From an uncultured Bacteroidia bacterium (GTDB taxonomy: Bacteria; Bacteroidota; Bacteroidia; Bacteroidales; UBA932), in NCBI GenBank assembly GCA_902778105.1, contig CACYWN010000001.1:62001-126000 (forward strand): DNA of 64,000 bases. Direction: 5' to 3'. Below, in pieces: positions 41,243 to 61,903 of this stretch. The stretch's first letter is position 1. Every line of letters begins with the position of its first letter. Under the pieces are notes generated by a model. That model saw only the letters and a program-made list of their open reading frames with translations, was not told the DNA's origin and did no database searches. A program made the translations under genes and the position numbers.

Positions 41243-41328
41243 GCGGGGCGGATGCGGTGTTCGTTCCGGGCCCCTTGCCGCCATCTATCGTGGAAATATC
41301 TGTCAATCAGTTATTTGACATAAAGCAA

Positions 41329-41364
41329 ACGGCAAGGGGTATCGGATTTCGTACCCCTTGCCGT
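41329..41364 (-). terminator. Intrinsic terminator between btuB and the FKBP gene
   Basis: Thirteen-bp perfect stem (41329-41341 and 41352-41364) with a 10-nt loop. It is followed on the minus strand by an interrupted T-rich stretch. A third copy of the arm (CCCCTTGCCG) lies at 41271-41280 and could pair with the left arm instead. Confidence 0.7.
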
Positions 41365-41421
41365 TGTAAAGATGCGGAATGTCTGATAATCAGCGTGTTA
41401 TGAATTATGACGCGGCAGAGG

Positions 41422-56868: not shown

Positions 56869-58536
56869 ATGAGAAGGATGATCAACAACTTAGCCGCCCT
56901 CTTCATCGCGATGACGATGATTGCGGCTCCTGAGGCCATCGCCCAGGCCCGCCGTTCCGGCGGATCCTCCACCACCTCCCGGTCGTCCTCTTCGCAGACT
57001 ACGACTCGTGGATCTTCTTCCAGCCGTTCCACCGGCTCCGTCGCCACCGGCCGCGGATCCTCCGGAACTTCCTATACCCGTTCGGCCAGCGCCGCACCCA
57101 GCCGTTCTGCCGTAGTGCAGAATGACCGGACCCGCTCCACGGGCACGACCACACGTTCCACGGGTTCTTCCACCCAGCGCGGTACCGGAAGCGCCACCAG
57201 AAGCACGGGCTCCAGCTCCACTTCCCGCGGTTCTTCCTCCGCTGTAACGAGCCGTTCCTCCGGTTCTTCCACCACCCGTTCCGCGGGTACCGTGGACCAG
57301 AACACCCGGACCACCCGTTCCACCGGCAGCAGCACTGCCACCCAGCGTGGCACTGGAAGCGCCACCAGAAGCACGGGCTCCAGCTCCACTTCCCGCGGTT
57401 CTTCCTCCGCTGCGACGAGCCGTTCCACCGGTTCTTCCACCACCCGTTCCGCGGGTACTGTGGACCAGAACACCCGGACCAGCCGTTCCACCGGTTCTTC
57501 CACCACCCGTTCCGCGGGTACTGTGGACCAGAACACCCGGACCAGCCGTTCCACCGGCAGCAGCGCTGCAACCAGCCGCAGCACTGGCAGCAATGCCCGT
57601 AGCTCCGCTTCTTCCAGCCGCAGCTCTTCCGCTTCTACCGACCGGGGCACCGGCGCCGTCCGCTCTTCCAGCAACGTCACCCGCAACGGTCTCGGCTATA
57701 ACGCCGGAAACGACAACTCCGCCGCTTCCGTGAAGAATACCGAGCCTGTCCGCGACCGTGGCGGCAACTACCGCTACAATGACGACTTCCGGATGGATGA
57801 AGGCCACAACCTCTACCGGGTACCTCCGCGCGAGCGTGACTTCATGCCGTGGGACCGTCCGGGCTACTTCTGGGACAACCGTCCTCACTATTTCGGCTAC
57901 CGGATCCAGGTACTGCCTCCGCGCTACCGCCGGATCACCCACTGGGGCATCGACTACTACTTCTATGAGGGTATTTACTACCGTCCGTTCGGAGGTGTGT
58001 ACGTCGTCTGCCGTCCGCCTTACTTCACTCCGCTCGAGAGAGCGATTGACAGGGCCCTGTTCAACCTGGTCAAGTTCTCCTACTACTGCAACACGTACCG
58101 GACCTACAACACGGTCTTCGACAATTACAACGTGATTGCCCAGCAGAACCTGATCATCGCCCAGAACAACGCCCGCATCGCCGCCCAGAACGCCACTTAC
58201 GCGCTCAACAACGGCCGCGCCCTCTCCGCCTACGAGCTGGCCAACAAGCTCGGCCTCGTGCAGAGCTACGCCTACGCCAACTCCGAGTACTTCTACCAGG
58301 ACGGTGTCTTCTACAGTGTGAATGCCTCCGGCACTTACACGACCATCGTCCCGCCGGCCGGAGCCCTCGTGACCTCCCTCCCGGACGACTACGAGACCAT
58401 CGTGCTGAACGGCATCGAGTATTACATGGTCGATAACACGGTTTACCGCACCATCCTCTTTGACGGACAGCCTTATCTCGAAGTCCTGGGCCAGATGTAC
58501 GGGTCGATGTACAACCAGTACAGTATCTACCGGTAG
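56869..58536 (+). CDS. Repetitive Ser/Thr/Arg-rich secreted protein with a C-terminal DUF6515-like domain
   Basis: The 555-residue protein has a signal peptide (to about residue 26). A low-complexity region of Ser, Thr, Arg and Gly (27-265) is built from tandem repeats (56 and 21 residues). The C-terminal domain (about 300-555) is rich in Tyr and Asn (YFGYRIQVLPPRYRRITHWG; FYQDGVFYSV), as in Bacteroidota DUF6515-like proteins. The repeat part is rich in positive charge and could bind nucleic acid or anionic polysaccharide, but no function is known. Confidence 0.8.
   Translation: MRRMINNLAALFIAMTMIAAPEAIAQARRSGGSSTTSRSSSSQTTTRGSSSSRSTGSVATGRGSSGTSYTRSASAAPSRSAVVQNDRTRSTGTTTRSTGSSTQRGTGSATRSTGSSSTSRGSSSAVTSRSSGSSTTRSAGTVDQNTRTTRSTGSSTATQRGTGSATRSTGSSSTSRGSSSAATSRSTGSSTTRSAGTVDQNTRTSRSTGSSTTRSAGTVDQNTRTSRSTGSSAATSRSTGSNARSSASSSRSSSASTDRGTGAVRSSSNVTRNGLGYNAGNDNSAASVKNTEPVRDRGGNYRYNDDFRMDEGHNLYRVPPRERDFMPWDRPGYFWDNRPHYFGYRIQVLPPRYRRITHWGIDYYFYEGIYYRPFGGVYVVCRPPYFTPLERAIDRALFNLVKFSYYCNTYRTYNTVFDNYNVIAQQNLIIAQNNARIAAQNATYALNNGRALSAYELANKLGLVQSYAYANSEYFYQDGVFYSVNASGTYTTIVPPAGALVTSLPDDYETIVLNGIEYYMVDNTVYRTILFDGQPYLEVLGQMYGSMYNQYSIYR
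57172..57557 (+). repeat. Tandem coding repeats (168 bp and 63 bp)
   Basis: A 168-bp unit (56 codons) starts at 57172 and again at 57340 with few changes. A 63-bp unit (21 codons, STTRSAGTVDQNTRTSRSTG core) starts at 57432 and 57495. Both multiples of three keep the frame, so the region can expand or contract by slippage or recombination. Confidence 0.85.
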
Positions 58537-58555: not shown

Positions 58556-58589
58556 ATGGCGTCACTTTTTGGGTGGCGCCATTGTTTTT
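58556..58589 (+). terminator. Intrinsic terminator of the repetitive-protein gene
   Basis: Ten-nt arms (58556-58565 and 58573-58582, one G-T pair), followed by a T5 run (58585-58589). Confidence 0.75.
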
Positions 58590-58602
58590 GATAATCAATG
58601 TG

Positions 58603-58664
58603 TTAATGGGGTATGCCCTGTGTTTGGAATCACAGGGCATATCTATTTAATGCGTTTATAATCA
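58603..58664 (+). repeat. REP-like palindrome, copy 1
   Basis: Left arm 58603-58622, 8-nt loop, right arm 58631-58650, with core TATGCCCTGTG / CACAGGGCATA. A TATAATCA tail follows 26 nt after the right-arm start (58657-58664). It has no T tail, so it is not a terminator. It lies downstream of murI. Confidence 0.75.
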
Positions 58665-58681
58665 GGTGAATATGTGCCAAG

Positions 58682-59431
58682 CTATAACAGCGCGAAGATT
58701 CTTTGCAAAGATGCCGGCTCTCCCGAGAAATACAGATCCACGCTGAAGGGACCCTCGCCGATAGGGATACCGCGTTTGTCGAGCATGCGGACCGTCTGGC
58801 GGGCGACGGCGGGGGCCGGGTCGATGACTTGGACAGAGGGACCGGCGATGGCCTCGATGATGGTACGGAGAAAAGGATAGTGCGTACATCCGAGGACAAT
58901 GCGGTCCGCGCCGGCGTCCAGCAGGGGCTGAAGGGAGCGGCGGACTGTCTCATGGGCCTCCGGACCGTCCAGGATGCCGTTTTCCACCAGTTCCACAAAA
59001 CCTTCGCCTACGTGTTCCACGATGCGGACATCGTCTTCGAAACGGCCTTTCGTCTTCAGGTATTTCGACCCTTTCAGTGTTCCTGCCGTTGCCAGGACAC
59101 CGATGACCCCGGTTTTCGTGCCAAGGGCTGCCGGTTTCACGGCGGGTTCCATTCCGACGAACGTCGTGTCCGGATACGTTTCCCGAAGCATGGCGATGGC
59201 CGCTGCTGTGGCGGTGTTGCAGGCGACGACGATGATGTCGGCACCCATCCCCAGCAGGATGTCGGTAATGGTGCGGGCGCGGTCCTGGATGTATTCCACC
59301 GACTTTTCACCGTACGGGCAATGAGCGTTGTCCGCGAAATAGACATACCGTTCCTGCGGGAGAAGTTTCACGATCTCCCGATACACGGACAGGCCGCCGG
59401 AGCCAGAGTCGAATATGCCGATGGTCGCCAT
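58682..59431 (-). CDS. murI: Glutamate racemase
   Basis: Makes D-glutamate for peptidoglycan. The 249-residue protein has the paired active-site motifs: FDSGSGGLSVYREI near the N-terminus, VACNTATAAA (first catalytic Cys) and VLGCTHYPFL (second catalytic Cys). I chose the ATG at 59431, 6 nt after the TAnnTTTG element; the upstream TTG overlaps it. It is divergent from prfB. Confidence 0.95.
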   Translation of the reverse strand: MATIGIFDSGSGGLSVYREIVKLLPQERYVYFADNAHCPYGEKSVEYIQDRARTITDILLGMGADIIVVACNTATAAAIAMLRETYPDTTFVGMEPAVKPAALGTKTGVIGVLATAGTLKGSKYLKTKGRFEDDVRIVEHVGEGFVELVENGILDGPEAHETVRRSLQPLLDAGADRIVLGCTHYPFLRTIIEAIAGPSVQVIDPAPAVARQTVRMLDKRGIPIGEGPFSVDLYFSGEPASLQRIFALL

Positions 59432-59437
59432 ACAATG

Positions 59438-59445
59438 CAAATATA
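59438..59445 (-). promoter_or_regulatory. -7 promoter element of murI (leaderless spacing)
   Basis: TATATTTG on the minus strand with exactly 6 nt (cattgt) before the ATG at 59431. Confidence 0.55.
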
Positions 59446-59459
59446 AGGGAAATTATTCG

Positions 59460-59467
59460 TATTTTTG
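59460..59467 (+). promoter_or_regulatory. -7 promoter element of prfB
   Basis: TATTTTTG, 21 nt before the prfB ATG at 59489, divergent from the murI promoter. Confidence 0.55.
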
Positions 59468-59488
59468 TACGTTTATACGGAAAGACCT

Positions 59489-60634
59489 ATGACGACCCTC
59501 GAACAAATCAAGGACCTGCGCGAGCGACTGGATACCCTGGAAAAATGCCTGGACATCGCAGGAAAGCGGAAAGAAGTGGAGCAGAAGACGAAGGAGAGCC
59601 TCTCGCCCGATTTCTGGAACGACCCCAAGGCCGCCGAGCTGTTTCTCAAGAAACTCGCCGGCGTGAAAGCCTGGGTGGCGGATTTCCAGAAGGCGGCCGG
59701 TTTCGTGGACGACCTGGACGTGCTGTACGATTTCGCGAAGGACAGCGTCAGCGGCACGGAGGACGAAGCTGTCGAGACCGACGAAACCCGCGAACTGGAC
59801 GCTACTTACGCGAAGGCCGTCGAGGCTGTTGAAGCACTGGAGCTCAAGAACATGCTGGGAAATGAAGGCGACAACCTGGGCGCCGTCCTCACCATCAACT
59901 CCGGGGCCGGCGGCACGGAGGCGAACGACTGGTCGTCGATGCTCATGCGCATGTACCTCCGCTGGGGCGAACGGAACGGCTACAAGATGACCGTCACCTC
60001 CCTCCTGGAAGGGGAAGAGGCCGGCATCAAGTCCGCCACCATCGAAGTCGAAGGGGACTATGCCTATGGTTATCTCAAGGCGGAGAACGGCGTACACCGC
60101 CTGGTCCGCATCTCCCCGTTCAATGCGCAGGGAAAGCGCCAGACCACCTTCTCGTCGGTCTTCGTCTATCCGCTGGTCGACGATTCCATCCACATCGAAA
60201 TCAATCCCGGCGACCTGGAATGGGATACCTTCCGCTCCGGCGGCCACGGCGGCCAGAACGTGAACAAGGTGGAAACCGGCGTCCGCGTGCGGCACATTCC
60301 CTCGGGCATCATGGTGGAGAACACCGAAACCCGCTCCCAGCAGGACAACCGCCAGCGCGCCCTCCTTATCCTCAAATCGCGCTTGTACGACATCGAGCTC
60401 AAGAAGCGCCAGGAGAAACAGGCCGAACTGGAAGGCCAGAAGAAGCGCATCGAATGGGGCTCCCAGATACGCAACTACGTCCTCCATCCCTACAAACTTG
60501 TGAAAGACCTCCGTACCGGTTACAGCACCGCCGACACCCAGGGCGTCCTGGACGGTGACCTCAACGAGTTCATGAAATCCTTCCTGATGGGCAACGGCGC
60601 GGCCGTTACGGATGTGGACGAAGACCTGGAGTAG
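59489..60634 (+). CDS. prfB: Peptide chain release factor 2
   Basis: Recognises UAA and UGA stops. The 381-residue protein has the RF2 tripeptide SPF at 209-211 and GGQ at 254-256. The frame runs unbroken past the position where many bacteria have an in-frame UGA and a programmed +1 shift (here LEKCLDIAGKR), so this copy has no frameshift autoregulation. The ATG at 59489 follows a promoter element. Confidence 0.96.
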   Translation: MTTLEQIKDLRERLDTLEKCLDIAGKRKEVEQKTKESLSPDFWNDPKAAELFLKKLAGVKAWVADFQKAAGFVDDLDVLYDFAKDSVSGTEDEAVETDETRELDATYAKAVEAVEALELKNMLGNEGDNLGAVLTINSGAGGTEANDWSSMLMRMYLRWGERNGYKMTVTSLLEGEEAGIKSATIEVEGDYAYGYLKAENGVHRLVRISPFNAQGKRQTTFSSVFVYPLVDDSIHIEINPGDLEWDTFRSGGHGGQNVNKVETGVRVRHIPSGIMVENTETRSQQDNRQRALLILKSRLYDIELKKRQEKQAELEGQKKRIEWGSQIRNYVLHPYKLVKDLRTGYSTADTQGVLDGDLNEFMKSFLMGNGAAVTDVDEDLE

Positions 60635-60672
60635 TTCCTTCTGTGTCAGTTAATTGCTTGATGAGTAGCTTT

Positions 60673-60734
60673 TTATGGGGAGATGCCCTGTGATTCCGTT
60701 CACAGGGCATCCCTATGTTGGAGTCTTATAATCA
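60673..60734 (+). repeat. REP-like palindrome, copy 2
   Basis: Left arm 60673-60692, loop ATTCCGTT, right arm 60701-60720, with core ATGCCCTGTG / CACAGGGCAT. The TATAATCA tail is at 60727-60734, 26 nt after the right-arm start as in copy 1. It lies directly downstream of the RAYT gene. Confidence 0.75.
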
Positions 60735-60755
60735 AATAGTTAGATGACACTGCAG

Positions 60756-61670
60756 TTATAAATCCAAAAACTTCTTCAACTGGTAGTAAGTGGCACCGGT
60801 ACGTTGTTGAAGGATATTCGCTATCCTTATCTTTTCTGCTTTGGGAAGAACAAGCATCGCTTTGGGATTATCGGCAAAGGAAGAATGCTGACAGGCTTTC
60901 AGTATTTCCCTGTAAATGGTATGAGGCTCGTTGTCGAAGTCTTCTTTAATATCATACTCGCTGCCTGTATTTGAGTTGATGGCTGTCAACATGGTCTGGT
61001 AATTTCCATACAGAAGGGATCGTTCCTCTTTGTCGATGGGAAGGTATGTGTATATGATAAAGTCGATGAGTTGTTCTGCCTCATTCTTTTTCAATCCGTC
61101 AAATAAGTCACGAAGGATCCGATAAGATAGATATGCATTGGCTTTGAAGAAAGCTTCCACCCTTTTCATGGAACGCAGAAGTTTTCTGGAGGCATGGCTT
61201 CTGACAATCTTTTCGGAAAAAGGATGGGAACTATCCAGAAAAGCGATGGCATTCCAACGGTCCTGCTCGGCTTTCTCAAACAACATTTTCTCGACAGCGT
61301 TGTTGTCTATATAAGAAACGTTTGTCCGGATCTTCTTCGCCCCGATCTTGGGCGCATTTCCATAGGCGCATCGGAATAAAGGACCATGTCGACCGATATC
61401 CCTATTGAATTCCATCGCATAAACCGACGTGTAGTCCCTTACAAAATCTCCCATTCGTGACGGCTCTTGAAGTCGGACGGATGAATGGGTATGATCATAC
61501 ATCAATGAAATGGCTAGAACCTGGGCATGATACTTTCGCGCCATCGCTGCAAATGCGGTGTAATAGACCAGACGGTCCATGTCATTGTAAAACAACAGCA
61601 CACCCCGACAGGTGTTCTGATAAAGATGTTGAAATGCATTCTCGATGATTCTTCTTTTCCTGACACGCAT
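60756..61670 (-). CDS. REP-associated tyrosine transposase (Y1_Tnp / RAYT)
   Basis: The 304-residue protein has the HUH nuclease core. The motif MYDHTHSSV (His60, His62) matches the HxH metal site. Downstream, FVRDYTSVYAMEFNRDIGRH supplies the catalytic Tyr (Tyr84, or Tyr80) followed by the FNR...GRHGPLF signature of RAYTs. A helical C-terminal part follows (150-304). Its AT-rich composition and codon use differ from neighbours, suggesting transfer. REP-like palindromes lie on both sides (60673 and 61809) and a third at 58603. RAYTs are single-copy relatives of IS200/IS605 transposases that mobilise REP sequences. Confidence 0.8.
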   Translation of the reverse strand: MRVRKRRIIENAFQHLYQNTCRGVLLFYNDMDRLVYYTAFAAMARKYHAQVLAISLMYDHTHSSVRLQEPSRMGDFVRDYTSVYAMEFNRDIGRHGPLFRCAYGNAPKIGAKKIRTNVSYIDNNAVEKMLFEKAEQDRWNAIAFLDSSHPFSEKIVRSHASRKLLRSMKRVEAFFKANAYLSYRILRDLFDGLKKNEAEQLIDFIIYTYLPIDKEERSLLYGNYQTMLTAINSNTGSEYDIKEDFDNEPHTIYREILKACQHSSFADNPKAMLVLPKAEKIRIANILQQRTGATYYQLKKFLDL

Positions 61671-61687
61671 ACTCTCTCACTCTTTTT

Positions 61688-61695
61688 CAAAGCTA
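61688..61695 (-). promoter_or_regulatory. -7 promoter element of the RAYT gene
   Basis: TAGCTTTG on the minus strand, 17 nt before the ATG at 61670. The rest of 61696-61800 is AT-rich with no gene. Confidence 0.45.
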
Positions 61696-61808
61696 TCCTT
61701 TTTGGGTGATTCTGTCAAGAGCCCCGTGTATATTTTTATGTTTTTTATTGATTTTTACGATTCTTATGATTTTTGAAGCTGGCACATAATATGTTGATTT
61801 GCAGAATG

Positions 61809-61870
61809 TTGAATGGGTATGCCCTGCGACTGAAATCACAGGGCATACCCATTCAACGTATTGATTACCA
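61809..61870 (+). repeat. REP-like palindrome, copy 3
   Basis: Left arm 61809-61828, 8-nt loop, right arm 61837-61856. The arms pair over 20 nt with one mismatch, the best preserved copy. The tail (GATTACCA, 61863-61870) aligns only partly with TATAATCA in the other copies. It lies upstream of the RAYT gene. Confidence 0.75.
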
Positions 61871-61877
61871 AATAGAA

Positions 61878-61903
61878 AGGCGCCATCGGGAAAGATGGCG
61901 CCT
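61878..61903 (-). terminator. Terminator of the fumarase gene
   Basis: Perfect 10-bp stem (AGGCGCCATC, 61878-61887, with 61894-61903) and a 6-nt loop, 21 nt beyond the fumarase stop. The minus-strand T tail is weak. Confidence 0.6.

Follow-up and report, generated by a model that had tools for sequence, protein, structure and literature searches.

The locus

The stretch of DNA analyzed here (the window) is 64,000 nucleotides (nt) long and comes from an uncultured Bacteroidales bacterium, in whose 2.66-Mb draft assembly of 48 contigs it occupies G000:C1:62001-126000 (G denotes a genome, C a contig and L an extracted locus). It holds a gene for a HUH/Y1 transposase resembling the RAYTs (REP-associated tyrosine transposases, REP being a repetitive extragenic palindrome), together with three copies of a nested palindrome, two of which flank the gene (Table 1). 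A preliminary description, made from the letters of the window, had reported three palindromes of one design around an AT-rich RAYT gene and had proposed a REP/RAYT pair. The palindromes and the gene are indeed present; the palindromes have the core ATGCCCTGTG, and the spaced core pattern is restricted to these three places in the window (five matches, three on the + strand and two of these also on the - strand; none in 100 shuffles). Complementary positions number 31, 32 and 33 of 50 in the three units, values reached by none of 10,000 letter shuffles of each. The gene has 43.7% GC, compared with 59% for the window.

Several details of that description needed revision. Arms of 20 nt, given for all three palindromes, fit copy 3 (22 nt, 95% complementary), but not copies 1 and 2. 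The common core holds except that copy 2 has GATGCCC/GGGCATC in place of TATGCCC and that one core pair of copy 3 is mismatched. The "TATAATCA tail" exists, but it is the right-hand half of a conserved two-sided TGATNATCA box, and the first unit begins at 58573, upstream of the start at 58603 assumed earlier.

Table 1. Features of the RAYT locus, in positions of the window
Feature	Position	Strand	Remarks
RAYT-like HUH/Y1 transposase gene, 304 amino acids (aa)	60756..61670	-	
HUH-type motif H60-T-H62	61485..61493	-	H60 and H62 invariant in 34/34 aligned subfamily members
Y120, presumed catalytic tyrosine in YxxNN	61311..61313	-	Y120, N123 and N124 invariant in 34/34; role inferred from the RAYT Y motif
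C-terminal helical domain, residues 151-304	60759..61220	-	Conserved across the subfamily; Pfam families match at most 2/33 members
Element copy 1, 108-nt nested palindrome	58573..58680	.	Site without unit in several relatives
Element copy 2, 108-nt nested palindrome	60643..60750	.	Model match E 2.3e-10; 5 nt from RAYT stop codon
Element copy 3, 108-nt nested palindrome	61779..61886	.	108 nt upstream of RAYT start
Inner hairpin, copy 1	58610..58643	.	
Inner hairpin, copy 2	60680..60713	.	
Inner hairpin, copy 3	61808..61857	.	22-nt arms, 95% complementary
Left TGATNATCA box of copy 1 = TTGATAATCA	58588..58597	+	Right half-box TTATAATCA at 58656-58664; box conserved across RAYT families
Left box of copy 2 = TTGATGAGTAG	60658..60668	+	Right half-box TTATAATCA at 60726-60734
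Left box of copy 3 = TTGATTTGCAG	61794..61804	+	Right box TTGATTACCA at 61861-61870

Architecture of the unit

Each unit consists of an outer arm, TAA, the TGATNATCA box, TTA and an inner hairpin, followed by the mirror image. Thirteen copies of the window type align to the consensus GTGGCGC-n-TAA - n4 - CTGATNATCAG - spacer - ATGGGTATGCCCTGTG - loop - mirror image, from which it follows that the core palindrome first noticed is the middle of a 108-nt unit. The same dimensions recur across the genus. After nine of 47 symmetry hits had been dropped (two of which, L081 and L082 at 1365, resemble genuine elements with wrong ends), anchoring on the box gave 37 of the remaining 38 units a length of 105-110 nt, the single exception being mis-anchored. 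In an alignment of 33 units the gaps are confined to the loop, except for a single end column affecting three rows. What is kept across types is a terminal (C)GT or CTG, AA at positions 11-12, YTGATWATCAR and TTA, while most stem positions vary; the ends differ by family (CGTC, CGTT, CGTA, CTGG and others). The predicted fold is one long interrupted hairpin with a single central hairpin, not two hairpins side by side as in a REPIN (a REP doublet forming a hairpin). An Rfam scan of the units gave no score near the gathering cut-off.

Copies in the genome

The preliminary description had named further genomic copies of the palindrome as a test of a REP system, and such copies exist. The strict core pattern occurs at 11 places in G000. 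With one mismatch allowed there are 16 more, three of them with matching outer structure (a backwards-read control gave 12 chance places), and two of these three (C8 and C29) represent a single stretch duplicated in inverted orientation. A covariance model built from the 13 window-type copies (R1) finds 14 strong full-length copies at E <= 1e-8, namely the 13 model copies and the duplicate, as well as weaker matches that are partly of other types. For all element types together, scoring of 150 of the 513 candidates gave at least 60 strand-wise matches at E <= 1e-4. Many copies are found a short way downstream of a stop codon. The RAYTs on C15 and C20 belong to the same subfamily; their units share the outer arm CGTYGAATGGAA and differ in their inner hairpins.

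A canonical REP is a hairpin of 20-40 nt with a GT[AG]G foot. Canonical REPs number more than about 100 per genome, of which the units in G000 fall short, and with its 108 nt, varied ends and low copy number the unit was rejected as one.

Other palindromes and neighboring sequences deserve mention. A degenerate or orphan nested palindrome lies at 41289-41409 of the window (inner stem AACGGCAAGGGGTA, TGATAATCA box; E 0.32 with the general model R2 introduced below); L354 (G319:C63), at about 320-530, was listed with it, and the C34 site in G319 has a look-alike palindrome with GCGGCAAGGG and TTATAATCA. Copies 1 and 3 each share their outer arm with an adjacent terminator-like hairpin (GGCGCC...), of which it forms one arm (window positions 58558-58583 and 61879-61902); this gives these elements the appearance of lying in or beside terminators. 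Elsewhere (L012:1458-1600, L355:324-433, L356:306-414 and L034:900-1071), elements seem to provide the start and first codons of genes for proteins that look secreted. At the C6 site the protein begins MRKLSAT in G000, MKRLAAT in G389 and MKRLTAS in G003, and MKKILF in unit-free relatives; at the C26 site it begins MNKLNAT. Just upstream of copy 1, a 555-aa open reading frame (ORF; 56869-58536) contains many Ser/Thr/Arg-rich near-repeats (RSTGSSTTRSAGTVDQNTRT). The RAYT region is bounded by genes that we take, from reading their translations, to be prfB-like and fumarase-like.

The RAYT protein

The assignment of the gene product to HUH/Y1 transposases of RAYT character stands. The protein contains a Y1_Tnp domain (PF01797, E 7.6e-6, above the family cut-off), its top match in a fold comparison was 4er8, and in a tree (from which one mis-parsed IS200 sequence and a duplicate E. 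coli row were excluded) it is closer to RAYTs than to IS200 TnpA. PF01797 is likewise found at E <= 0.01 in 33 of the 34 subfamily members aligned, seven of 41 RAYT loci having been excluded from the alignment for want of a parse, as fragments or for an incomplete frame. The N-terminal HUH/Y1 domain is followed by a helical C-terminal domain of about 150 aa. For this domain Pfam yields no family matched by more than two of 33 members, and Bac_DnaA_C, HTH_23 and HTH_28 are not among the matches listed (25 of 34 families).

An IS200/IS605 identity, in the form of many identical copies, had been considered in the preliminary description and was rejected: Y---Q is absent, NF033573 was not found in G000 at E <= 1e-15, and the six Y1_Tnp genes in G000 are mutually diverged single-copy types.

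Two of the RAYTs of G000 that belong to another subfamily (on C23 and C6) are flanked by paired hairpins of 30-40 nt (L028:1406-1497 and 2503-2594; L030:1377-1461). The pairs have a constant start-to-start spacing of 52 nt and letters specific to each RAYT (TGATGGTGGTCCA vs TGATGGAGATGTCC), and they are a second REP-like system in G000.

The same design across the genus

In a protein search of 61 genomes, the subfamily was found in 23 of 37 genomes of the genus, G000 included, and in none of 24 from other families; in G035 the match reached E 1.6e-4 only. Most flanks of the subfamily genes carry nested palindromes with new letters and the same layout. A general element model across types (R2, applied at E <= 1e-3) finds units at 51 of 56 subfamily RAYT loci and none at L059, L064, L086, L093 and L095. 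Twenty of the 56 loci had supplied sequences to the model; among the 36 independent of it, units were found at 31. At the same threshold, no unit was found at 29 RAYT loci from an order-wide profile search, at E. coli rayT or with the other RAYT types of G000, three in number; L321 and L316 gave weak matches (E 0.05-0.09). The idea of a distinct RAYT clade with its own palindrome is supported.

Units often stand on both sides of the gene. Of the 51 element-bearing loci, 47 were carried on (L061, L068, L077 and L145 were excluded, their matches being partial, or full length but weak and short), and 44 of these have a parsed ORF (L078, L094 and L154 do not); both sides are occupied in 31 of the 44. 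All eight named database loci with relatives have at least one unit each. These relatives are metagenome-assembled genomes (MAGs) of Bacteroidales or Bacteroidia, four of them from goat, yak or water buffalo gut.

Presence, absence and locus history

At eight of ten dispersed sites the unit is absent in at least one of ten relatives; at the other two only one flank was matched. The clearest site is C29:22933, empty in 10 of 10 relatives (312-322 nt, vs 320 expected), where R2 finds no unit; nor does R2 find one in the junction-spanning relatives examined at the empty sites. At C6:64651 the full query shows seven relatives to be empty, and G389 and G003 carry a window-like unit there (R2 E 2e-8 and 1e-8). 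In the window, the unit of copy 1 is absent in several relatives, with L167 having an unlike, weakly matching palindrome (E 0.009), and in two relatives a stretch of 51 nt stands where the window has 1,290 nt comprising the RAYT with its two elements. The aligned sites showed no consistent target duplication. At C9:83168 (L013:1458-1565) and the C20 RAYT (L029:2515-2622), the alternative allele retains 18-19 nt aligned to one element end, without the other ~90 nt; these remnants could be one-ended excision scars or could reflect a preference for look-alike targets.

A homologue of the window RAYT occupies the corresponding position in a yak MAG (77% identity) and in G093 (99%), and for the C15 and C20 RAYTs, too, other genomes have relatives at the same locus. 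Differences between the window RAYT and the yak homologue fall 58/38/172 over the three codon positions, a third-position bias that points to purifying selection; nonsynonymous divergence (dN) is 0.15, and synonymous divergence (dS) was not computable and is taken as saturated. From these comparisons, we read the RAYT gene as one that stays put and is inherited vertically.

Association and cognate specificity

In a survey of 101 genomes of the genus (element counts being the best 38 per genome, both strands together), 77 hold elements: 57 of 58 genomes with the subfamily (E < 1e-50) as against 20 of 43 without it (Fisher p 5e-10). Fourteen of the 43 carry weaker RAYT matches only. The lone subfamily genome without elements, G036, has RAYT flanks that bear another palindrome.

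Specificity was examined in G000, G034 and G028 with 60 elements fetched among the matches listed (20 per genome) and 11 window-type copies, of which 54 in all are not RAYT flanks. Given a choice among 47 RAYT loci, three or four of them resident, 45 of these 54 dispersed units best match the unit of a resident RAYT; the outer arm alone gives 34 of 54 and the inner stem alone 40 of 54. There is, then, a strong tendency toward one RAYT, one element family. Arm and stem likeness also decays with RAYT divergence. Among 43 RAYTs, the nine pairs with at least 60% identity have similarities of 0.80 for arms and 0.67 for stems, pairs of 50-60% identity 0.62 and 0.50, and pairs below 50% about 0.55 and 0.46 (at least 60% vs below 50%, permutation p 2e-4 for arms and 2e-4 for stems). 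L129, an orthologue of L082, was excluded from the matching, pair-identity and Mantel analyses, the last of which are taken up below.

Interpretation and alternatives

Overall the findings support a REP/RAYT-type interpretation of the locus, and we read the element as of the REP/RAYT kind while not being a canonical REP. Judging by sequence comparison, this is probably a system with a new substrate, in which non-autonomous, REPIN-like units are mobilized in trans by a vertically inherited cognate RAYT. The resident RAYT would act on the ~108-nt palindromic elements when these become single-stranded, most simply on the lagging-strand template, and fold into the long interrupted hairpin, whereby the two ends would be brought together. 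It would recognize the conserved skeleton of TGATNATCA, TAA and TTA as well as the outer arm and inner hairpin peculiar to each family, cut at the unit ends, and then move or copy the unit to gene ends, its own gene presumably remaining in place and passing on by vertical inheritance. Mobilization by the RAYT, cleavage, folding of single-stranded DNA in the cell and the assignment of protein parts to DNA parts are what we infer from these comparisons, which suggest an enzyme that spreads small DNA elements evolving together with it.

We considered whether the RAYT and its two flanking elements might instead form one autonomous transposon, IS-like or akin to a TIRtron, with the dispersed elements as its derivatives. 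The elements found on both sides at 31 of 44 loci and the absence of the entire block in two relatives are what such a transposon would leave, but the six Y1_Tnp genes of G000 are mutually diverged, RAYTs sit at the same locus in different genomes, and each dispersed unit is a full two-ended palindrome rather than one left and one right end, so that we regard this as unlikely. It is a little harder still to see the palindromes as intrinsic terminators or other RNA structures at gene 3' ends, with RAYT proximity incidental. Many copies do follow shortly after a stop codon, and the arm that copies 1 and 3 share with a terminator-like hairpin fits such a role. The length of the unit, however, is fixed, and its sequence follows the resident RAYT. 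Some relatives show ordinary terminator-like hairpins at a site from which the whole unit is missing, the right ends of the 13 copies listed are not followed by a T-run, and the Rfam result offers nothing near gathering scores. The site at C29:22933 fits precise gain of a whole unit with the cognate RAYT present.

Inverted terminal arms, a length of ~108 nt, dispersal and polymorphism are also the marks of miniature inverted-repeat transposable elements (MITEs) of an ordinary DDE transposon, in which case the RAYT genes would be passengers caught between two MITEs. The element found at a RAYT, however, is of the type belonging to that RAYT; a consistent target duplication is not seen at aligned sites, and the units flank subfamily RAYTs and not the other RAYTs tested. 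We consider this account very improbable.

Several observations nevertheless weigh against mobilization of the units by a cognate RAYT. Two-sided pair changes across units are more numerous than in shuffles (309 cells vs 108), but since the units were chosen by symmetry the paired cells are partly built in, as the fixed length and the box are not; covariation within the window type alone gives a modest gain over shuffles. The subfamily Y motif has the consensus YxxNNP (Y, N and N invariant); in the window protein the motif reads YIDNNA. Classical REPs reach far higher copy numbers. Two subfamily loci, L059 and L086, have other flanking palindromes (paired TACTCGTG/CACGAGTA hairpins and a GGACTTCTCCCC hairpin), possibly a switch of element type within the clade. 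The presence of the C6:64651 unit in both G389 and G003 implies an insertion that is old or repeatedly lost, and so not every polymorphic site is a young gain; element boundaries are non-uniform at C9:83168 and the C20 RAYT. The 20 element-bearing genomes with no detected subfamily RAYT include assemblies at least 95% complete (G030, G088); RAYTs that were lost, unassembled or diverged could explain such orphan elements. Finally, Mantel correlations of arms or stems with protein distance are weak overall (r 0.00-0.16), with a clearly low p, among the tests run, for stem vs C-terminal domain only.

The genus may hold naturally orthogonal pairs of HUH nuclease and substrate on one scaffold, a tentative extension that we hold to be possible rather than probable. 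The skeleton (TAA, TGATNATCA, TTA and the ~108-nt spacing) would be read by a conserved part of the protein, the outer arm and inner hairpin would be exchangeable specificity modules read by diverging parts, and the new C-terminal domain might take part in recognition. Arms and hairpins seem able to change separately, as the shared arm and unlike hairpins of the C15 and C20 RAYTs indicate.

Comparison with known systems

A close parallel is with the TnpAREP/RAYT proteins and the REPs and REPINs of Proteobacteria (E. coli rayT, Pseudomonas), as described in the text available of PMC8266576: there too a low-copy, vertically inherited gene with the HUH/Y1 RAYT fold is flanked by copies of its own dispersed short palindrome. 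The differences are the 108-nt unit with outer arm, box and central hairpin, the varied ends in place of a fixed GTAG foot, tens of copies rather than hundreds, and the extra C-terminal domain of ~150 aa.

Within the phylum, subclass 2.6 (RAYT group 5) of Bacteroidetes has "atypical secondary structures" without GT[AG]G that flank the genes and have copies elsewhere in the genome (PMC6006769, text available), much as here. As described there, its proteins are ~179 aa long with WQ and YIH[QN]NP, and neither a 108-nt nested unit nor RAYT-specific arms are mentioned. We rejected this identity for the window protein, which has 304 aa, YxxNN and no W at residues 93-110; one of 34 subfamily members (L089) has LWE in the equivalent region. 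The "double foot" REPs of subclass 2.4, with a foot and its complement at both ends, offer another comparison: the window consensus GTGG...CCAC fits GT[AG]G...C[TC]AC and the 2.4 motif YIxNNP resembles that of the subfamily, although other families here end in other letters, and the 2.4 proteins are described as having a variable insertion before the Y motif and no post-core extension (PMC6006769, text available). The C-terminal domain recalls the helix-turn-helix (HTH), DNA-binding-like C-termini of subclass 2.1.2, but the same text reports REP-like sequence to be absent near 2.1 genes. In TIRtrons (TIRYT), too, long inverted repeats flank RAYT-like genes, and some of these repeats are self-complementary and dispersed; the text available of PMC3733652 names examples from Acidobacteria and Proteobacteria and does not describe a fixed 108-nt unit, and the likeness is one of description only. 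No description of the 108-nt unit or of the C-terminal domain was found in the text available of these two papers (PMC6006769, PMC3733652), the literature search having covered open-licence papers, and on that basis we call the system a new variant within the REP/RAYT kind.

According to the text available of PMC8266576, what is understood of how RAYTs choose their palindromes, and of how the two change in concert, comes from a small number of proteobacterial pairs (E. coli, S. maltophilia, Marinomonas). In the one genus studied here, over 40 RAYT loci, several in one genome, have cognate elements that can be read and that share a scaffold, so that exchanges of arms, stems and domains could serve to map specificity; and a REP/RAYT-like system with a large, unusual substrate can be placed in ruminant-gut Bacteroidales known from metagenomes.

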